From Fibrobacterota bacterium (GTDB taxonomy: Bacteria; Fibrobacterota; Fibrobacteria; UBA11236): DNA of 64,000 bases. This document shows positions 18,361 to 57,415 of the stretch, piece by piece. Every line of letters begins with the position of its first letter. Within the stretch, counting starts at the first letter, position 1. The position numbers and the translations under genes are program-made. Below the pieces are notes generated by a model. The model had not been told where the DNA came from. It did no database searches and worked only from the letters and a program-made list of their open reading frames with translations. The stretch spans positions 1 to 64,000 of the forward strand of contig JAEKLQ010000063.1 of NCBI GenBank assembly GCA_019509785.1. Reading direction: 5' to 3'.

Positions 18361-19341
18361 ATGCGGTTAAGGGAATTCGGGAAATCGGGATTGCGCGTGT
18401 CGGAAATCGGCTTCGGCGCTTGGGCCTTGGGGGAATCATGGTGGGGTAAGCAGGATGACAAAGAATCATTGAAGTCCCTCCACCGGGCCGCCGAACTGGG
18501 CGCCAACTTCATCGATACGGCGCAGGTCTACGGCGATGGCCGCAGCGAATCCATCATCGCCCGCTTCCGCAAGGAATGGAAGGGCGAACTCATCGTCGCC
18601 ACCAAGACCCCTCCCGAAGCGGGCGAATGGCCGCCATCCCCATACGATCCGCCCTCGGTATCCTATTCGCCGGCCTACCTGCGCGCCAACGTGGAGAAGC
18701 GGCTCAAGGCGTTGGACGTCGAGCGCATCGATATCCTGCAATTGCATAGCTGGACCCGGGCCTGGAACCGGAATCCCGCGCCTTTCGAAACCTTGCGCCG
18801 GCTGCGCGAGGAGGGCAAGATCGGCCTCATCGGGGTCTCCACCCCCGAGCATGATCAGAATTCGGTGGTCGATTTGATCAAAGGCGGTTGGGTCGATTCG
18901 GTGCAGGTCATCTTCAACCTCTTCGAACAGGAGCCCGCGGCGGAGATCCTGCCGGCGGCGGCGGAGCATGGCGTGGGCATCATCGTGCGCATGGCATTCG
19001 ACGAAGGCGCCTTGACCGGCAAGTTCAATCGCCAAACCGTTTTCCCCGCGGGGGATTTCCGTTCCGACTACTTCCGGGGCGAGCGCCTGGGCCGGGTGGT
19101 GGATCGAGTGGAACGCATCCGGAAGGATTTGGAAGGAAGCGGCTATACCATGCCGCAGGCTGCGCTCAAATTCTCCCTGGGCCATCCCGCCGTAAGCACG
19201 GTGATAGCGGGCATCCGTAATCCCGCGCAGGCGGAGATGAACCTGGCGGTCTCCGATCTGCCAGACCTCCCTAAAGTCCTGCAGGAGAAGTTGCGGAGGC
19301 ATAATTGGCGCAGGGGGATCTGGTATGCTGACCATTGGTGA
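18361..19341 (+). CDS. Aldo/keto reductase
   Basis: A 326-residue NADPH-dependent oxidoreductase of the AKR superfamily, cytoplasmic. The catalytic tetrad is visible: Asp52 and Tyr57 in FIDTAQVYGDG, Lys82 in VATKTPP and His129 in ILQLHSW. The C-terminal cofactor-binding segment (STVIAGIRNPAQAEMNL) is also present. The overall pattern (GKSGLRVSEIGFGAWALG) fits the YghZ/YajO-like group acting on small aldehydes or sugar-derived carbonyls; the substrate cannot be told from sequence. It stands alone on the plus strand between a divergent spacer and a palindromic repeat element that begins 14 nt after its stop. Confidence 0.9.
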   Translation: MRLREFGKSGLRVSEIGFGAWALGESWWGKQDDKESLKSLHRAAELGANFIDTAQVYGDGRSESIIARFRKEWKGELIVATKTPPEAGEWPPSPYDPPSVSYSPAYLRANVEKRLKALDVERIDILQLHSWTRAWNRNPAPFETLRRLREEGKIGLIGVSTPEHDQNSVVDLIKGGWVDSVQVIFNLFEQEPAAEILPAAAEHGVGIIVRMAFDEGALTGKFNRQTVFPAGDFRSDYFRGERLGRVVDRVERIRKDLEGSGYTMPQAALKFSLGHPAVSTVIAGIRNPAQAEMNLAVSDLPDLPKVLQEKLRRHNWRRGIWYADHW

Positions 19342-19354
19342 ATGAGGTGGGTCT

Positions 19355-19556
19355 GGGCGGGGCCGCGAGCCGGTGGGGCGGCTCGGATGCTCGCTTTCGG
19401 TAAAGCGGTCCTTCCGCGGCTTGGGAACGCGACGCCCGCGAACCGCACTGCCGGTCTCTCGCCGGCTGACGCGGGCTTTCGAATTTTCCGGGCTGAATCG
19501 CTTTCCCGAGCCGCGACGCTTGCAACTCGCCGCCCCACCGTCTCGCGGCCCCGCCC
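19355..19556. repeat. Nested palindromic element A
   Basis: A 202-bp structure of three nested inverted repeats. The outer arms, 19355-19382 and 19529-19556, match at 27 of 28 positions. The middle arms, 19415-19432 and 19498-19515, match at 16 of 18 and carry the TCGCTTTCCCGAGCCG motif. The inner arms are GCCCGCG (19434-19440) and CGCGGGC (19470-19476), around a small GCCGG/CCGGC hairpin. It has no ORF with a ribosome binding site. The core aligns with element C near 55.4 kb. Confidence 0.8.
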
Positions 19557-19707
19557 GTCCCCGCTCTTCTCCCCATGTTCCGCATACCCGTTCATGATGC
19601 GTTCGAAGGGAACGGGGTTGCCGGTGCCCTTGGCTTGTGGCCGCGAAGATTGCGGCCTCGAAGATTGCCGAGTCTGATTGCCTGCCGGGGCGCCCGGGCT
19701 GTAGGAT

Positions 19708-23742: not shown

Positions 23743-24981
23743 TTACTGGAATTTCTTGAAAATAAGGGTGGCGTTGTGACCGCCGAACCCGAAAGAATTC
23801 GAGAGGAAGGTCTTGATGGGCTCCTCGCGCGCCTGGTTAGGGACGTAATCCAGATCGCATTCCGGATCGGATTCGAACTGATTGATGGTAGGATGCACCA
23901 CGTTGCGGTTGAACGCCATGAGGCCCGCCACCGCCTCGGCCGCGCCGGCCGCGCCCAGCAAGTGCCCGATCATGGATTTGGTGGAATGCACCATCACCTT
24001 GCGGGCATGGTCACCCAGGGCGCGCTTGATCGCCAACGTCTCGCCCGCATCCCCGCGCGGCGTCGAAGTGCCGTGGGCGTTCACGAGATCGATGTCGGAA
24101 GGATTCATGCCCGCCGATTGCAAGGCGTTACGCATGGCGCGGTATCCGCCGGCCCCGTCCTCGCAAGGCGCGGTGATATGATGCGCGTCGCAGCCCATCC
24201 CGTAACCGGCGAACTCGCCATAGATCTTGGCGCCGCGCTTCTTGGCGTGTTCGAGCTCTTCGAGTACCAGTACGGCGGAGCCTTCCCCCATCACGAAGCC
24301 GTCGCGACCCTTGTCCCAAGGACGCGAGGCGGTCTTGGGATCCTCGTTACGGGTGGAAAGGGCCTTCATGTTGGCGAAGCCGGCGTAGATCACTTCGATC
24401 ATGGAGGCTTCGGATCCCCCGGTGAACATGATGTCGGCGGCGCCGCGCTTGATGATTTCGTAAGCCTCGCCCATGCTGTGGTTGGAGCTGGCGCAGGCCG
24501 ACAGGATGGTGTAATTGGGGCCCTGCAGGTTGTTCTCGATGGCGAAGTAGGCGGCCACCGTATTGGGCAGGATCATGGGGATGAAGAAAGGGGATACGCG
24601 CTTATGGCCCCGCTCCACCATCACCTTGGTATCGGACTCGAATGTGGAGACGCCTCCCATGCCGGTGGCGATGATGGCCCCGGCCCGCTCGGGATCGAAT
24701 TTGCCTTCGAGTCCCGAATCGGCCATGGCCTGGTGGGACGCCACGTGGGCGTAAATGATGGCCCGGTCCAGGCGCCTGGCCATCTTCTGGTCCTTGAAGT
24801 AAGGCATCCATTCGAAGTCCCGCACCTGCCCGCCGATGCGGCTCGACATCGTTTCGTTCGGGAAGCGGTTCACCATCCCGATCCCGGATTCGCCGAGGGC
24901 CAGCCGCCGCCAATACTCGTCCACGCTCAAGGCCAGGGGATTGACGGTTCCCAGGCCGGTGATCACCACGCGTCTCGACAT
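23743..24981 (-). CDS. fabF: 3-oxoacyl-ACP synthase II
   Basis: This 412-residue condensing enzyme elongates fatty acids by joining malonyl-ACP to acyl-ACP. The thiolase-fold active site is complete: Cys in ILSACASSNHS, first His in NAHGTSTPRGDAGE, second His in KSMIGHLLGAAGA, plus the end motif NSFGFGGHNATL. Length is that of FabF rather than FabH. The gene is not in the fab cluster at 35-39 kb, but sits behind two M16-family genes in another operon. GAGGAA precedes the ATG at 24981. Confidence 0.95.
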   Translation of the reverse strand: MSRRVVITGLGTVNPLALSVDEYWRRLALGESGIGMVNRFPNETMSSRIGGQVRDFEWMPYFKDQKMARRLDRAIIYAHVASHQAMADSGLEGKFDPERAGAIIATGMGGVSTFESDTKVMVERGHKRVSPFFIPMILPNTVAAYFAIENNLQGPNYTILSACASSNHSMGEAYEIIKRGAADIMFTGGSEASMIEVIYAGFANMKALSTRNEDPKTASRPWDKGRDGFVMGEGSAVLVLEELEHAKKRGAKIYGEFAGYGMGCDAHHITAPCEDGAGGYRAMRNALQSAGMNPSDIDLVNAHGTSTPRGDAGETLAIKRALGDHARKVMVHSTKSMIGHLLGAAGAAEAVAGLMAFNRNVVHPTINQFESDPECDLDYVPNQAREEPIKTFLSNSFGFGGHNATLIFKKFQ

Positions 24982-25005
24982 AACCGTTCCTCTTTCCCTA
25001 GCGTG

Positions 25006-26655
25006 TTACTTACGCGCCTCGATATCCGCGATGGTCATCTCGTGCACGGGCCCGAAATGCGAAAGGGCCGCCTGGTTGCGCTCATCCGTCTTCATCAGTT
25101 CCGCCTTGTTGCCCACCACGATGATGCGCATGGAATCGGGATCGAAATACTTGCGGAAGGCGGTTTCCACCTCGGCCTTGTTCATGCCGGAAATGGTTTT
25201 GATGTACTCGGTGAAATGGTCGGGGCTGCGGTGCCATATCTCGCCTTGGGCGAAGATATGGGCCGTGGCCGCGGGCGTGTCGAAGGTGGCGGGCAGGCTC
25301 TTGATCAGGCCGTCCTTGGCGCGCTGCAATTCCTCGTCCGTGACCCCGTCCTTGGCCATGCGCTTCATTTCGGAGAGCACCAACTTCACGGCATAAGCGG
25401 CGGTTTCCACCTTGGTCTGCAAGGATACGTTCACCGTGGATTTGCGGTAATAATCGCTTCCCACGTCGCTATCGATCCCGTAGGCCAGGCCCTCGTTGGA
25501 GCGAACCTTCTCCATCAGCCGGGAAGTGAAGCCGCCGTCCCCGAAGATGTAGCTGGCCACGATCAAGCGGTAGTAATCCGGATCGGGTCGTTTCACACCC
25601 GGCGCGCCCAGGCGGATGGTGGCCTGGGTGAAAGGCTTGTCGATGACGTAGACGCCGGGGGCTTGCGGCCCCGGGAACGGCGGAAGCGAATCGGTTCCGC
25701 CCTTGTAATCGGGGGGGAACTTGGCGATGAGCTTGTTGAGCTGGGCGATCATTTCCTGGCGATCGAATTGCCCCGAGACCCCGATGACCATGCCCTTGGT
25801 CGAGTAGCCCGAACCGATCCAGGTCTTGAGCTTGGCGGTGGTTACGGCTTCCACTTCTTTGGCATTGGCCAACCAGTTGATCGCGTTCGGGCCGAACATG
25901 ACGTGCTCGTAGGCGACCCCCATTACCCCGTTGGGCGTGTCATAACGGTGCTTCAGGTTCTCGAGATAGGCGCGCTTCTGCACCTTGAAGACCTCGGGGT
26001 CGAGTCCGGGCCGCAAGGCCACCTCGGGCAGCAGATCAAATAGCGCGTAAGCATCCTTCTTGAGGGCGTCCAGGGAGAGTTCGGCCTGATAACGGCCGAT
26101 ACCGGCCCCCACGGATGCGGCCACGAACTCCAGGCTGTCTTCCAGTTGTTCGGGCTTGAGGCGGGCAGTGCCGCCCGATTTGAGCATGGCGGAATAGAGT
26201 CCCAAGGGGGCCACGTCGGCGGGCTGCTTGGGGAGATCGGGGTGGCCGAACAGGATTTGCATCTGGATCAAGGCCAGGGTGCTGTCCGGGACCAGGTAGG
26301 CTACCACTCCGCGATCCAGGACCACGCGATGATCCTTGGGATGCGGCGGTTGGTAGGTGAACTCGGGAAAGACGATTTTCGAGTAATGATCGGGAATGCC
26401 GGAGGAGGACATGGCGCCCGTCACCTTGGCTGTAGCCGTCTTGACCATTTCCTTTGTCTGGACGGCGGCGGTCTTGACCGCCTGGCCGGTAGCCTTGGCG
26501 GCCGTAGCGACGGCGTTACCGGGATGGGCGAGCGCCTGCTTCGCCTCGACGGCGGCCTGCTTAGGCCCCGAAGCGTGGGCCTTGGAAGAATCCACAGGGG
26601 CGGCGGCCCATGCGGCGCAGGCGATGAAAGGCACTAGTGCGGCGAAGCGGTTCAT
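25006..26655 (-). CDS. M16-family protein lacking the zinc motif
   Basis: A 549-residue exported protein: signal peptide (AALVPFIACAAWAA), an Ala/Lys/Thr-rich stretch to about residue 100, then tandem M16 (insulinase/pitrilysin) folds. The first half has no HxxEH zinc-binding motif; the expected position carries unrelated sequence (PADVAPLGLYSAMLKSGG). The second half retains the substrate-grip pattern (RLMEKVRSNEGLAYGIDSDV). M16 proteins often act as pairs in which one subunit is catalytic and one only binds substrate, and the gene upstream supplies an intact HLLEH. The ATGA overlap at 26652-26655 supports one heteromeric periplasmic peptidase. Confidence 0.85.
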   Translation of the reverse strand: MNRFAALVPFIACAAWAAAPVDSSKAHASGPKQAAVEAKQALAHPGNAVATAAKATGQAVKTAAVQTKEMVKTATAKVTGAMSSSGIPDHYSKIVFPEFTYQPPHPKDHRVVLDRGVVAYLVPDSTLALIQMQILFGHPDLPKQPADVAPLGLYSAMLKSGGTARLKPEQLEDSLEFVAASVGAGIGRYQAELSLDALKKDAYALFDLLPEVALRPGLDPEVFKVQKRAYLENLKHRYDTPNGVMGVAYEHVMFGPNAINWLANAKEVEAVTTAKLKTWIGSGYSTKGMVIGVSGQFDRQEMIAQLNKLIAKFPPDYKGGTDSLPPFPGPQAPGVYVIDKPFTQATIRLGAPGVKRPDPDYYRLIVASYIFGDGGFTSRLMEKVRSNEGLAYGIDSDVGSDYYRKSTVNVSLQTKVETAAYAVKLVLSEMKRMAKDGVTDEELQRAKDGLIKSLPATFDTPAATAHIFAQGEIWHRSPDHFTEYIKTISGMNKAEVETAFRKYFDPDSMRIIVVGNKAELMKTDERNQAALSHFGPVHEMTIADIEARK

Positions 26656-28226
26656 TGCGCGCCTCCTTCCTGGGCGGCAGCGGCTTTCGGCTTGGCCGCC
26701 TTGGGGGTCTTAGCCTTCCCACCGGCTGCGCCGGTGGGACCCAAAGCCCCATGCGCGCCGGGAACGGGCGCTTCGGGCAGGATCAAGCCGGTCGTCGAGT
26801 TTTGCACGGTGAAATATTTCTTGCATACGTCCTGCACCTGCTGGGCGGTCACTTTCTCTACGCCGTCGGGGAAGCGGTTGATGTAGTCCCAGCCGCCGCG
26901 CATTTCCCAGAAGGCGAGCTCGGTGGCCAACTCTTCCTTGTCCAACAACTGCCGTTGGGTGCGGGCCACCACCTGGTTCTTGGCCCGGGTGAGTTCGCGC
27001 TCCGTGATGGGCTTCTGCCCCAAATCGGTAAGCACTTCCCAAACGGCCTTTTCCACTTTTTCCGGCTGGGGATTGCCATCCAGATCCGCCTCGATGGAGA
27101 AGTTCGACGTGTACTTATCCACGCCGTTGCCGCCCGCGGCGTTCAGCGCGATTTTCTTTTCCTTCACCAACTTCTTGTAGAGCCTGCCGCTCTTCCCCGA
27201 AAGCACGCCTTCCACGATATCGAGGGCGTACAGATCGGGATGATCGAAACCGGGCGTGTGGAAGAGGATGTCCATGCGGGGCTTGGCCGAGTTCTTCAGT
27301 ACCGTCATGCGCTTGGCGCCCGGCTGCTGGGGTTCTTCCACCACCACCGGCGGGAATTCCGACCCGCGCGGGATGCCGCCGAAGTATTTCTTGATATCGG
27401 CCAGGGTGGATGCCGGATCGAAGTCCCCCACCAGCACCAGGATGGCGTTGTTGGGCTTGTAGTATTTGCGATAGTGCTCGTCCGCCATCTCCCGGGTCAG
27501 GTTGCGGATGTTGGAAGGATATCCGATGGTGGGCAGGCGGAAGGGATGGGCTTCGTAGAACAAGGCCATCAGGCTTTCCCAATAGCGGCCGGTGGGGCTA
27601 TCCTCCACGCGCATCCGGCGCTCTTCCATCACCACGTCCCGTTCCGAATAGAACTCGCGCAAGACCGCGTTCTGCATGCGATCCGATTCCAGCCACAAGT
27701 AGAGATCGATCTTGTTCTTGGGCAAGGTCACGAAATATGCCGTCATCAGATCCGAGGTGAAGGCGTTGAGGCCGGTGCCGCCGTTCTTCTCGTAGGCTTC
27801 CCACAGCTCGTACTTGATCATCAGCTTGCGCTCTTCGGCGATGAGGGAGTCGTAACGACGCTTGAGAGCCACGCGCGAGGCCGTGTCCGCGGGCGGCAGG
27901 CTGCGGTATTTTTCCATCAAGGCATCGATGGCCGTGATGTACTCGGCGTCCTTTTCGGGATCCTTCACGCCCACCTTCTTGGTGCCCTTGAAGAGCATGT
28001 GCTCGAGGAGATGCGCGATGCCGTTGTTCTCGAAATTCTCGTGCACCGATCCGGTGACGTAAAACAAGCGGCACGCCACCGTGGGCGCCTGCTTATCCTG
28101 GAACAGGATGACCTTGAGGCCGTTGTCGAGCACGGTATAGTCGGCGCGGATGGCGGCGCGCGCAGGCGCGAAAGCCGCCAGGGCCAGCGCCCCGATCGAG
28201 ATCCAAACCCGCATGCGTCCCTTCAT
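26652..28226 (-). CDS. M16-family zinc peptidase, catalytic member
   Basis: A 524-residue exported metallopeptidase. The start at 28226 follows GGAGGAG and encodes a signal peptide (VWISIGALALAAFAPARA). The inverted zinc motif HxxEH is intact in GIAHLLEHMLFKGTKKVG, and the downstream region NAFTSDLMTAYFVTLP fits the family. The C-terminal half is the usual inactive duplicate, and the protein ends in an Ala/Pro/Lys-rich tail. The likely role is degradation of peptides in the periplasm or at the outer membrane, together with the zinc-less partner that overlaps its stop. Its own start overlaps the stop of the helicase gene by ATGA, a surprising coupling of unrelated functions. Confidence 0.92.
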   Translation of the reverse strand: MKGRMRVWISIGALALAAFAPARAAIRADYTVLDNGLKVILFQDKQAPTVACRLFYVTGSVHENFENNGIAHLLEHMLFKGTKKVGVKDPEKDAEYITAIDALMEKYRSLPPADTASRVALKRRYDSLIAEERKLMIKYELWEAYEKNGGTGLNAFTSDLMTAYFVTLPKNKIDLYLWLESDRMQNAVLREFYSERDVVMEERRMRVEDSPTGRYWESLMALFYEAHPFRLPTIGYPSNIRNLTREMADEHYRKYYKPNNAILVLVGDFDPASTLADIKKYFGGIPRGSEFPPVVVEEPQQPGAKRMTVLKNSAKPRMDILFHTPGFDHPDLYALDIVEGVLSGKSGRLYKKLVKEKKIALNAAGGNGVDKYTSNFSIEADLDGNPQPEKVEKAVWEVLTDLGQKPITERELTRAKNQVVARTQRQLLDKEELATELAFWEMRGGWDYINRFPDGVEKVTAQQVQDVCKKYFTVQNSTTGLILPEAPVPGAHGALGPTGAAGGKAKTPKAAKPKAAAAQEGGAQ

Positions 28227-53534: not shown

Positions 53535-54962
53535 TTGGTTCTGCTCGCCGAACAAGAAAAATTGCTGGGGGAGCTGCCAAAAGACCGTTCCAGACTGCAA
53601 AGCCAAGTTTCAGCCGTCCTCAAAAATCAAACCGGAAAGGTACTCAGCGACCCCCTGGAATTGGTTTTCACGACGGACTGCATTATCGGCATTTTGCAGA
53701 TTCCCCAGAAAAAGGGTCTATCCCGGGAAGATCGGTTACGCTTGGCGGCCTCCCGCATTGGGGACCTCCAGAAAAGTCGCTCTTGGCCCAAAACCGCGAT
53801 CTCGGCGGATGGGCTGACGATTCCGGAAATGAAGGCCCTGGCCGAAGGCCTTCATCTCTCGTCCTACGAATTCCGTAAGTACAAATCCGAAAAGAAGCCG
53901 GAAAAATCCGAAGCCGAAACCATCCTATGGGTCGCGGGCGAGAATATGAAAAAGGCGACGGTCGCATTGGCCGAAGCCGAAACGGTATCCCGTCTGATCA
54001 ATTCCTGTCGCGATCTGGTGAACGAACCGGGTTCGCACCTCGATCCCGACGATTTCACCGAAGCGGCGCGGCGCGCCGCCAAGGAATTCGGCCTGACCAT
54101 CAAGGTTCGGGACGAGAAGAAGCTGCAAAGCGAAGGCTTCTTGGGCTTATGGACGGTGGGCAAGGGTTCCGATCGGCCTCCGCGCATGGTGACTTTGGGC
54201 TATGAAGGCAAAGCCGCGAAGAAAGGCGGTAAGGCGCCGCACCTGGTGCTGGTGGGAAAGGGCGTCACCTTCGACACCGGCGGCATCAGCATCAAGCCGA
54301 GCCAGGGAATGTGGGAAATGAAAAGCGACATGGCTGGCGCCGCCACGGTGCTCTCCGCGCTCTGCGCCATCGCCGCCCTGAAGCTTCCCATCAAGGCCAG
54401 CGCCGTGCTCTGCCTGGCGGAAAATCGCCCCGGTAACGCAGCCGTGCTTCCCGGCGACATCTTTACCGCCAAGAACGGCAAGACCGTAATGGTGGACAAT
54501 ACCGACGCCGAAGGCCGCCTCATCCTCTCGGACGGGCTGGCGGAAGCCGGGGCCATCGGCGCGACCCATATCATCGATTTGGCGACCCTGACCGGCGCCA
54601 TCATCCGCGCCATCGGCCCGTCCATCGCCGGCCTGTTCTGCAATGACGAGGACTTCACCCGCCTGATGCTCCAGGCTGGAGGGACCGCATCGGAGAAGTT
54701 CTGCGTGATGCCGCTCGAGGAAGAGTACCGCGAATACCTGGATGACCCCGTGGCGGACATGAAGAACGTGGGCAAGCCGGAAGCGGGCGCCATCACCGCC
54801 GCCTTGTTCCTGCAGGAATTCGTCCCACCCAAGACCGCTTGGTCCCATTGGGATATCGCGGGGACGGCGTTTACCACGTCGCCTTGGAAATATTTCAAGG
54901 CTGGGGCGACGGGCTGGGGCGTGCGTTCGCTTGTGGAAGTTGCGCGGATGCTTGCTGGGTAG
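53535..54962 (+). CDS. pepA: Leucyl aminopeptidase (M17)
   Basis: A cytoplasmic M17 exopeptidase of at least 475 residues that removes N-terminal amino acids, using two metal ions. The C-terminal catalytic domain has the metal and catalytic sites LVGKGVTFDTGGISIKP, KSDMAGAATVLSAL and VDNTDAEGRLILSDGL with the Arg. The N-terminal domain is divergent, as usual. The start is unclear: TTG at 53535 is the first canonical start in frame but has poor ribosome-binding spacing, while the open frame runs back to 53454 with helix-like sequence ([20 protein letters not shown]) that would need a CTG (53466) or ATT (53463) start. It is divergent from the sigma-54 activator gene. Confidence 0.92.
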   Translation: MVLLAEQEKLLGELPKDRSRLQSQVSAVLKNQTGKVLSDPLELVFTTDCIIGILQIPQKKGLSREDRLRLAASRIGDLQKSRSWPKTAISADGLTIPEMKALAEGLHLSSYEFRKYKSEKKPEKSEAETILWVAGENMKKATVALAEAETVSRLINSCRDLVNEPGSHLDPDDFTEAARRAAKEFGLTIKVRDEKKLQSEGFLGLWTVGKGSDRPPRMVTLGYEGKAAKKGGKAPHLVLVGKGVTFDTGGISIKPSQGMWEMKSDMAGAATVLSALCAIAALKLPIKASAVLCLAENRPGNAAVLPGDIFTAKNGKTVMVDNTDAEGRLILSDGLAEAGAIGATHIIDLATLTGAIIRAIGPSIAGLFCNDEDFTRLMLQAGGTASEKFCVMPLEEEYREYLDDPVADMKNVGKPEAGAITAALFLQEFVPPKTAWSHWDIAGTAFTTSPWKYFKAGATGWGVRSLVEVARMLAG

Positions 54963-54968
54963 GTCTCT

Positions 54969-55149
54969 GGGCGGTGCGGCGCGTCGGTTTCGGCGCGGGG
55001 TCGGCTCACCGTTGAATGGAATCGATGTTCGGCCCGGAAAAGGGACGGCCGCGCATTTGAAGAGCGCGGCCTTTCGACTGAAGTAATCGTTCCCTTTTCC
55101 GGGCCTCCTTCCGCCTCGCATGCGCCGAAACCGCCGCGCCCCACCGCCC
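54969..55149. repeat. Nested palindromic element B
   Basis: A 181-bp nested inverted repeat starting 7 nt after pepA. The outer arms, 54969-54996 and 55122-55149, match at 26 of 28. The middle arms GGCCCGGAAAAGGG (55031-55044) and CCCTTTTCCGGGCC (55092-55105) are perfect. The inner stem GGCCGCGC (55047-55054) and GCGCGGCC (55064-55071) has a 9-nt loop, ATTTGAAGA. The inner hairpin is followed by TTT and may also terminate pepA. Its core resembles element C in inverted orientation. Confidence 0.85.
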
Positions 55150-55226
55150 CGGACCCCGCCCCGCAGCCCGCACGCTTTTTGCGCGAAGACCCACCACGGT
55201 TCGACAGCCAATAATTTTGGTCGAAT

Positions 55227-55281
55227 GGAGAACTTTCCCGCGGCGGAGGCCCAAGGAGTGCGGCCGTGCACCGCTGTTCTC
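55227..55281. repeat. Small nested inverted repeat between elements B and C
   Basis: GGAGAAC (55227-55233) and GTTCTCC (55275-55281) enclose partial GCGG/CCGC pairing. It is weaker than elements B and C and may be a remnant. Together B, this repeat and C fill most of the 670-bp gene-free spacer 54963-55630. Confidence 0.45.
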
Positions 55282-55355
55282 CTGCAGGCCCGAGTCGATG
55301 CGCCCGCAGGGGTGGGCTGGATCGGGCGCGCGCACGGGGGAAAGGGCGGGGGCGG

Positions 55356-55515
55356 GGCTCCGGGCCGGCGAGTTATGCGCGCGCGGCTTCCGGGAAAGCG
55401 AATGGTTCCCAGGGAATCGACAGCCCGCGCTCCCCAAATGCGCGGGCGACCGCTTTCCCGGAAACCGCAACGACCGCCTGGCACGGAAAGCGCATAGCCG
55501 AGCCGTCCCGGAGCC
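55356..55515. repeat. Nested palindromic element C
   Basis: A 160-bp nested inverted repeat. The outer arms, about 55356-55380 and 55490-55515, start with GGCTCCGGG/CCCGGAGCC and end with TATGCGC/GCGCATA. The middle arms TTCCGGGAAAGCG (55388-55400) and CGCTTTCCCGGAA (55451-55463) are perfect. The inner stem GCCCGCGC (55423-55430) and GCGCGGGC (55440-55447) has a 9-nt loop. Read on the minus strand, its core (CGCCCGCG, loop, CGCGGGCT, then TCGCTTTCCCG) matches element A. Confidence 0.85.
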
Positions 55516-55630
55516 ACGGACACGCCCGGAGCCACAGCCGAGCCCGCTCCAGCCCGCCGACCGAGCAGCGCGCAACGACCCACCAGTAGGAGACCCCGCG
55601 CGCCCAGCCTTTTCTATCTTGGAAGAGCCT

Positions 55631-57415
55631 ATGGAAAAGATCGCAATCGTCGATTTCGGAGGCCAATACACCCACTTGATCGCCCGCCGCGTGCGTCAGT
55701 TGGGCGTGTACTCGGAAGTGGTGGGCCCCCACTCGGGCGCCGAAGAGGTGAAAGGCTTCAAAGGGCTCATCTTCTCGGGCGGGCCGGCCTCCGTGTACGA
55801 GAAGGGCGCGCCCCAGGCCAATCCCGCGCTGTTGAAATCCGGACTGCCCATTTTGGGCCTGTGCTACGGCCATCAATTGATTTGCCGCGATCTGGGCGGG
55901 GAAGTGAAGCAGGGCAAGGTGCATGAGTTCGGGCCCGCCGAGTTCCATCCTGACCGCAGCCATCCGCTTTTCGCGGGAATGTCGGACGCTTCAACCGTGT
56001 GGATGAGCCACGGCGATGAGGTCTCCAAACTGCCCTCAGGCTTCCGCCGTATCGGTTATACGGTGAATTGCGATTTGGCCGCGGTGGCCAACGACGCGCG
56101 GAAGATCTTCTGCGTGCAGTTCCATCCCGAAGTGACCCATACCGAAGAGGGGATGATCCTCCTCAAGAATTACCTGACCCATATCGGTTGCAAATTCGAA
56201 TGGAAGGTGGCGGATTACCTGAAGGGCCTGGAAGAGAAGTTGCGCCTTCAATGCGAGGGCAAACGGGTGTTCCTGCTGGTATCCGGCGGGGTGGATTCCA
56301 CCGTGGCCTTCGCGCTGTTGAACAAGGCCCTGGGCCCCGAGCGCGTGCTGGGATTGCATATCGACAATGGCTTGATGCGGAAGAACGAGAGCGCCGACGT
56401 GATCGAGTTCATGAATAAGGAGGGGTTCCGCAACCTCAAGGTCCGGGATGCCGCGAAGGATTTCCTGAAGGCCTTGGAAGGCGTGCATGCGCCGGAGGCC
56501 AAGCGCAAAATCATCGGCGAAACCTTCCTGACCGTGAAGGACGATGCCCTGGCGGCGTTAAACCTCGATCCGGACGGATGGCTTTTGGCGCAAGGCACCA
56601 TTTACCCGGATACCATCGAGAGCGGCGGAACCAAGAACGCGGCCGTCATCAAGACCCACCATAACCGGGTGGGCGCGATATTGGAACTGCTGGCGAAAGG
56701 CTTGGTGGTGGAACCGCTGGCCGATCTGTATAAGGACGAGGTGCGCGAACTGGGTGAGTTGTTGGGAATCCCGCATCGGCTGGTGTGGCGGCATCCCTTC
56801 CCGGGCCCGGGCCTAGGCGTCCGGCTATTGTGCAGCGCCAAGGCGGATCGCAAGGTGGACCCCGGGGTAACCGCCAAGGTACTGGCTACCTTGGCCCCCG
56901 AAGGCTTGGATGGCGAAGTGCTGCCGGTGGAAAGCGTGGGCGTGCAGGGCGATGCGCGCACCTATGCCCATCCTTTGCTGCTACGGGGCCTGCGCGATTG
57001 GGAGAAATCCGATAAGTTGGCCGTGGCCCTGGCCAATCGCATTCGCGAGGTGAACCGCGTGGTGCTGGAATTGGGCGCGTTGCCCGGGCCCTACAAGACC
57101 GTAGCCGCTCAATGCGACAAGCCGCGGCTGGATCTTCTGCGCGAGGCCGATGACATTTGCACGCGCTTCCTGGAAGCGGAGAATTTGTACGCCACCTTGT
57201 GGCAGATGCCCGTGGTGCTGCTGCCTTTGGAGAAAGGCGGCCAGCCGGTTTTCGTCCTGCGCCCGGTGATTTCCTCGGAAGCCATGACCGCGCGCTTCGC
57301 GGCCCTGCCGTTCCCCTTGCTGGACAAGCTTTGGACGGCGCTCAAGGCCGCCGGGGCCGGGGCCATGCTATACGATATCACGCATAAGCCCCCAGGGACG
57401 ATCGAATGGGAATGA
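55631..57415 (+). CDS. guaA: GMP synthase (glutamine-hydrolysing), long form
   Basis: A 594-residue enzyme that converts XMP to GMP, using glutamine and ATP. The glutaminase domain has Cys78 in GLCYGHQLICRDLGG and His/Glu in VQFHPEVTHTEEG. The ATP-pyrophosphatase P-loop is LVSGGVDSTVAFALL, and the domain also contains RHPFPGPGLGVRLLC. Typical bacterial GuaA has 510-530 residues; the extra length lies in the C-terminal dimerisation part (VESVGVQGDARTYAHPLLLR), which resembles the long form known from eukaryotes and some bacteria. The ATG at 55631 follows GGAAGAG; upstream frame is in repeat sequence. It overlaps hflX by ATGA. Confidence 0.95.
   Translation: MEKIAIVDFGGQYTHLIARRVRQLGVYSEVVGPHSGAEEVKGFKGLIFSGGPASVYEKGAPQANPALLKSGLPILGLCYGHQLICRDLGGEVKQGKVHEFGPAEFHPDRSHPLFAGMSDASTVWMSHGDEVSKLPSGFRRIGYTVNCDLAAVANDARKIFCVQFHPEVTHTEEGMILLKNYLTHIGCKFEWKVADYLKGLEEKLRLQCEGKRVFLLVSGGVDSTVAFALLNKALGPERVLGLHIDNGLMRKNESADVIEFMNKEGFRNLKVRDAAKDFLKALEGVHAPEAKRKIIGETFLTVKDDALAALNLDPDGWLLAQGTIYPDTIESGGTKNAAVIKTHHNRVGAILELLAKGLVVEPLADLYKDEVRELGELLGIPHRLVWRHPFPGPGLGVRLLCSAKADRKVDPGVTAKVLATLAPEGLDGEVLPVESVGVQGDARTYAHPLLLRGLRDWEKSDKLAVALANRIREVNRVVLELGALPGPYKTVAAQCDKPRLDLLREADDICTRFLEAENLYATLWQMPVVLLPLEKGGQPVFVLRPVISSEAMTARFAALPFPLLDKLWTALKAAGAGAMLYDITHKPPGTIEWE

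Follow-up and report, generated by a model that had tools for sequence, protein, structure and literature searches.

A genus-wide family of large tagged palindromes at gene boundaries in Fibrobacterota, with arm pairing possibly maintained at the DNA level

Three long nested palindromes, here called A, B and C, were found in the window (the whole 64,000-nt stretch of DNA analysed), and our best call is that the family to which they belong represents a new, large form of tagged extragenic palindromes. We give about even chances to the fuller reading, in which A, B and C are large tagged DNA-hairpin repeats at gene boundaries, arranged in a REPIN-like layout and with arms kept complementary at the DNA level. 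The evidence comes from the anatomy, covariation, placement and inheritance of the copies in the source genome (G000) and five sister species (G001 to G005).

Results

The initial annotation had placed the nested arms of the three elements correctly. Element A (19344-19560, forward strand; covariance-model match 19373-19548, 121 bits) begins 2 nt past the stop codon (19339-19341) of an aldo/keto reductase gene (18361-19341) and contains all parts of the unit: the tag GGTGGGTCTGG, located outside the main stem at 19346-19356, the 28-nt 5' arm of the outer stem P1 (19355-19382, pairing with 19529-19556 at 96%), an internal loop, the 5' arm of the middle stem P2 (19415-19432, partner 19498-19515) and the inner hairpin P3 (19434-19476), whose GCCCGCG...CGCGGGC stem encloses a long loop of variable sequence. 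Element B (54963-55155, forward strand; match 54985-55143, 101 bits) begins directly past the pepA stop codon TAG (54960-54962), with P1 at 54969-54996 (partner 55122-55149, 93%), P2 at 55031-55045 (partner 55091-55105, 15/15) and P3, GGCCGCGC-ATTTGAAGA-GCGCGGCC, at 55047-55071. B and C form a convergent pair whose 3' ends are separated by a spacer (55156-55343) with no clear conservation of its own.

Element C (55344-55527) lies in reverse orientation with its 5' side towards guaA (minus-strand match 55350-55511, 149 bits). Its outer arms (about 55356-55371 and 55499-55515) are part of a longer imperfect arm, P2 at 55383-55400 pairs with 55451-55468, and P3 reads GCCCGCGC-ATTTGGGGA-GCGCGGGC on the minus strand (55423-55447). 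The element is placed just upstream of the promoter-like TTTTCTATCTT (55610-55620, forward strand), the probable -10 region of guaA, and outside the mRNA leader of this gene, whose ATG is at 55631; a TTTCTATATT/TTTTCTATCTT-like sequence occurs there in the five genus members compared. The identities of pepA and guaA were confirmed. The pepA protein assigns the window to a Fibrobacterota MAG, its closest named records coming from 'Fibrobacteres bacterium' and 'Fibrobacteria bacterium' MAGs (73-78% identity). Besides, several genes of the same genome have TTTCTATATT/TTTTCTATCTT some 10-20 nt ahead of their start codons, which suggests a TATATT-like -10 element and very short mRNA leaders.

When folded as single-stranded DNA, A, B and C gave z scores of -8.9, -8.3 and -5.0 against dinucleotide shuffles, and for each of them none of 200 shuffles folded as well. 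Only nine inverted repeats of comparable score were found in 464 kb of the genome, all of them intergenic, and A was the strongest.

Searches by blastn with A, B and C separately returned overlapping sets of dispersed places and one covariance model matched all three, which upholds their assignment to a single family with a shared architecture. The family is nevertheless not one of three members, as was first thought: a model built from 26 copies (R1) detected at least 42 copies in the source genome, and a model rebuilt from 68 copies (R2) detected at least 48 there, in addition to at least 20 in G005, 9 in G002, 7 in G004 and 2 in G003, all copy counts being lower bounds. No copy was detected with R2 in the fifth sister species, G001, or in 34 genomes outside the genus, although the models were trained inside the genus and more distant relatives could escape them; the nested-palindrome family looks genus-specific. 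The covariance-model search recommended in the initial annotation yielded many further copies with compensatory changes in the source genome and four sister species, and the outcome that would have spoken against a family, namely no further copies and no covariation, is clearly not what was found.

At about 180-230 nt, the unit exceeds REP units and ordinary terminators in size, as had been remarked. Read in the direction of A, it consists of the tag, P1, the internal loop, P2, P3, a bulge rich in TTTCGA and finally the return arms. The tag GGTGGGTCTGG stands just outside the stem on the 5' side in 28 of 42 source-genome copies, about 21 of them at one fixed offset, and on the 3' side in five (chance expectation 0.013 per 60 nt); it reads neither GTAG nor CGTC. 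The internal loop between P1 and P2 has conserved CTCGG, GCT..GGTC and AACTCGCCG, while the GCCCGCG...CGCGGGC stem of P3 is near-invariant and encloses a loop of almost none to about 80 nt. Several P1 stems of the source genome carry 1x1 mismatches at recurring distances; in sister species the P1 arms can match perfectly over 23-45 bp (56/57 in one case), and their sequences are unrelated. Over the core, identity between copies averages 48% and reaches at most 82%. The proposed core alignment of A and C was reproduced, but only with C read on the minus strand.

Two additional segments were observed around the units. Beyond the tag, a sub-family carries a further module of about 130 nt (GGGCGCGTCGGGCCGGGGGCGGGG...GGTTGCGGTCCGCGG) that lengthens the palindrome on its outer side, as in the source-genome copies at C57:40983-41152, C24 beside 24953, C54:5219-5387, C73:17069-17200 and C56:18374-18550. 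Moreover, a hairpin-like segment, GGCGCACTCTAAAGTT / GAGAGTGCGCC, recurs between gene promoters and the tagged end of elements, with examples between divergent promoters and elements in G005 (C292 right side, C309 and C298) and in G000 (C54:86003).

The claim that pairing is conserved while the arm sequences vary was strongly supported. In the 68-copy alignment both sides vary in 37 of 43 pairs, and 632 double-change cells were counted where shuffles gave 186 +/- 13. Pairing holds in 91.8% of the cells, a value that falls to 48% or less once the partners are displaced from each other by one to three columns. The 68-copy alignment was fitted to the covariance model, and an independent MAFFT alignment of 26 copies gave the same picture.

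The type of mismatch that is tolerated can distinguish pairing in RNA from pairing in DNA, since selection on an RNA made from one strand should tolerate G.U better than A.C, the form that the same mutation takes on the other strand. With arms aligned locally and every mismatch type equally penalised, P1 cells comprised 1559 Watson-Crick, 8 G.U and 23 A.C, a weak lean to A.C (p 0.011), and P2 cells comprised 1035, 12 and 12, giving totals of 2594, 20 and 35. The acceptor and T stems of tRNAs from the same group, a small control sample of 21 tRNAs, contained 239 Watson-Crick, 13 G.U and no A.C cells, and the contrast with the elements in G.U/A.C was significant (Fisher p = 2e-5). Similarly, copies at orthologous genes showed 202 changes from one Watson-Crick pair to another versus 12 G.U and 11 A.C states. 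Because G.U is as rare as A.C, DNA-level repair of the arms by template switching fits better than a structured RNA, and we infer that arm complementarity is kept mainly in DNA and not by selection on a one-strand RNA.

Template switching is a documented origin of paired changes without intermediates, and it should also make G-C and U-A pairs more frequent than C-G and A-U pairs (PMC8794818). The P1 pairs show such an orientation excess (G-C to C-G 1625:873; U-A to A-U 355:169), to which we give little weight because conserved G-rich stretches could produce the same. Template switching alone cannot account for the conserved loops, for which some selection, or ectopic exchange among the copies, has to be invoked as well. 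Rfam covariance models gave no match to the elements at the gathering score and nothing relevant at permissive thresholds, where the best sub-threshold match (E 0.14) was to an unrelated miRNA model.

All 42 source-genome copies that were placed are intergenic and none lies inside a gene predicted by a codon-usage gene finder, in agreement with the initial view that the elements encode nothing. Their polarity is nearly uniform: of the two ends, the tagged one is the closer to its gene in 40 of 42 source-genome copies and in 20 of 21 copies of the relatives (60/63 overall). The tagged-side neighbour presents its end in 17 and its start in 25 of the 42 copies. Genes ending at an element do so at a distance of -6 to 19 nt in 13 of the 17 cases, and those copies would consequently be within the mRNA; genes starting at an element keep a distance of at least 20 nt, which leaves room for a promoter. 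Pairs separated by less than 1 kb are always convergent with their tags outward, as B and C are.

Most tagged-side genes are conserved ones (uvrB, ffh, ftsY, argG, IMPDH, guaA and pepA, and also a class I tRNA synthetase, uvrD, GAPDH and the T6SS genes hcp and tssC), and it is our impression that those on the other side are more accessory in character. A rule placing the elements in 3'-UTRs was rejected, as the tagged-side neighbour is a gene start in 25 of 42 copies, and a regulon was rejected because the tagged-side genes form a mixed housekeeping set.

Comparison among species indicated that many copies are old and inherited, since the tagged-side gene of 19 of 27 copies in relatives is the orthologue, in the same orientation, of a tagged-side gene of the source genome (5/5 copies in G004, 3/3 in G002 and 11/19 in G005; p about 1e-30, assuming about 4,000 genes). 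In the GuaA tree the deepest split of the genus separates G000 and G005 from G002, G003 and G004, and several shared loci span it. The maximum core identity of 82% points to the absence of a recent burst. Pair mates or orthologues were considered as closest relatives and mostly are not; the similarity ranks scatter, so that the sequences show neither a clean descent by orthology nor simple concerted evolution at individual loci. Broken synteny at C57:41153 and C57:41486 was dropped as evidence that elements follow their genes, because the contigs of G005 break off within the spacer or shortly past it.

No RAYT (Y1_Tnp) transposase was found in the copy-bearing genomes (G000 and G002 to G005), and RAYT was accordingly rejected as the mobiliser; RAYT-like Y1_Tnp genes were confined to G001, the genus member without a detected copy, at C47:25212-25571 and at C51:28492-28850, the latter with an internal stop codon. 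The phages, plasmids and viral contigs searched gave no match to the element, and spread through them was rejected. No transposase was present among the annotated flanking genes, no target duplication was seen at the copies, and no mobilising enzyme or excision product was found.

Discussion

REP and REPIN sequences are dispersed extragenic imperfect palindromes with an unpaired tag at one end, inverted dimers and long persistence (PMC3733652, PMC3116915, PMC8049555). The family described here resembles the GTAG- or CGTC-tagged REP/REPIN (BIME) sequences in consisting of many extragenic imperfect palindromes, often with a one-sided unpaired tag, in its frequent opposite-orientation dimers around a spacer with the tags outward, and in its long persistence. 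It differs in the size of the unit (about 180-230 nt versus 20-40 nt for REP), in the tag, in having three nested stems with conserved internal loops and arms almost wholly different between copies, in its occurrence also between divergent genes, and in the absence of RAYT from the copy-bearing genomes. Membership of REP/REPIN is not claimed, because unit length and transposase do not agree with it. Covarying RNA hairpins attributed to template switching share with our elements the paired changes without intermediates and the renewal of perfect stems in one step (PMC8794818), but those hairpins belong to RNA genes, and the G.U/A.C symmetry of the present family argues against RNA pairing as the constraint.

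The arms may stay matched because template switching in replication rewrites one of them from the other (quasipalindrome copying), because a DNA hairpin or cruciform is under selection, or for both reasons, and the core would be kept through selection or exchange between copies. We favour an origin by old single-strand or hairpin transposition with a putative enzyme, the copies now being vertically inherited and retained at the edges of conserved genes. A hairpin at a gene edge would probably serve as a boundary, either topological or against read-through, or else simply be tolerated; polarity and position make a boundary role plausible. A more specific version appears rather unlikely to us: polar DNA boundary elements, large hairpins whose arms undergo constant renewal by template switching in replication, whose protein-recognised loops and P3 are fixed, and which are set tag-first on conserved genes and inherited for the length of the genus. 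If it were true, the elements would be selected for DNA structure and not for RNA structure.

A bidirectional transcription terminator or polar insulator, in which the hairpin would halt polymerase whichever strand is read and so shield conserved genes from read-through coming from the spacer side, is an unlikely explanation, although G.U and A.C would be equally unfavourable if the hairpin had to form in the RNA of either strand, in keeping with the symmetric counts, and the position at transcription-unit edges, the fixed polarity and the mostly conserved housekeeping genes on the tagged side all agree with it. Against it, the U-tract is missing on both strands, and a separate canonical intrinsic terminator precedes some copies (C26:840, G004 C73:234869, G005 C309:25526 and G005 C108:17275), for which reasons an intrinsic terminator was rejected; moreover, a symmetric terminator would not predict polarity and leaves the conserved internal loops unexplained. 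These loops could also be read as RNA motifs, and together with the conserved architecture and the strong covariation they speak for a family of structured RNAs, located in 3'-UTRs or acting as small RNAs, with selection on the fold and with pairing changes that arose by ordinary compensatory evolution. The copies adjacent to stop codons (13/17) would be transcribed with the upstream gene, and the A.C lean of P1 would weakly fit a constraint on an RNA from the opposite strand. Nevertheless, structured RNAs at gene ends, one of the two initial proposals, have lost ground and seem to us unlikely, given that G.U is not favoured over A.C (20 versus 35, compared with 13 versus 0 in tRNAs), that 25 of 42 copies lie beside and antisense to a gene start, that C is upstream of the guaA promoter, that Rfam gave no match and that the long perfect arms of the relatives are unrelated in sequence.

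The other initial proposal, a MITE-like element, is possible as an origin, but no near-identical copy, target duplication or REP transposase was found and 19 of 27 copies in relatives are at orthologous genes. As an active or recent non-autonomous foldback/MITE transposon, in which a convergent pair would be the whole element, the hairpins its terminal inverted repeats and single copies solo ends, the family could explain the dispersed copies, the outward tags of every pair, the range from 0-2 to at least 48 copies among sister species and the pepA-guaA spacer of G004, which is element-free and 113 bp long compared with 669 bp in G000. Where copies are paired, and only there, the two oppositely oriented hairpins provide terminal inverted repeats. 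We consider such a transposon unlikely: a mean core identity of 48% and a best value of 82% do not fit recent spread with similar copies, no predicted gene is disrupted, and neither the annotated flanking genes nor the phage, plasmid and viral-contig searches revealed a transposase or a match, respectively. ERIC and RU-type enterobacterial MITEs and NEMIS are non-coding intergenic imperfect palindromes of 100-200 nt with tens of copies or more, and their copies are similar in sequence. Our family is likewise non-coding, intergenic and present in tens of imperfectly palindromic copies; unlike them, it combines 48% core identity with 92% pairing, and no target duplication was seen.

Covariation is usually regarded as the best sequence evidence of a functional RNA. 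The present family shows near-perfect covariation, with covariance-model scores of up to 150 bits in one genome, yet its G.U/A.C balance points to DNA, and counting G.U versus A.C offers a simple check on other RNA claims based on covariation. The family also provides a natural test bed for the survival and renewal of long palindromes in bacteria, and it shows that large tagged palindromes extend beyond the groups and transposases known for REP/REPIN.

Three species share a convergent pair at the same place, between the T6SS gene hcp and tssC/vipB, which encodes the sheath (G000 C26:1-2588; G004 C73, about 234100-236500; G005 C309, about 24600-27200). The interval between pepA and guaA has undergone turnover: both elements are present in G000 and G005, the short spacer of G004 is too diverged to align, and unrelated palindromes stand in place of the elements in G002 and G003. 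The palindrome of G003 has TTTTGCCTTTTGCACTTTGCACTT arms (L072 6431-6640; G003 C8, about 109836-109974), a motif that has ten near-matches in G003 but no more than one in any of the ten other genomes searched, and that of G002, a third unrelated palindrome, is built of GGGCGTC/GTCGGGC repeats (L075 6490-6640; same sequence in L301).
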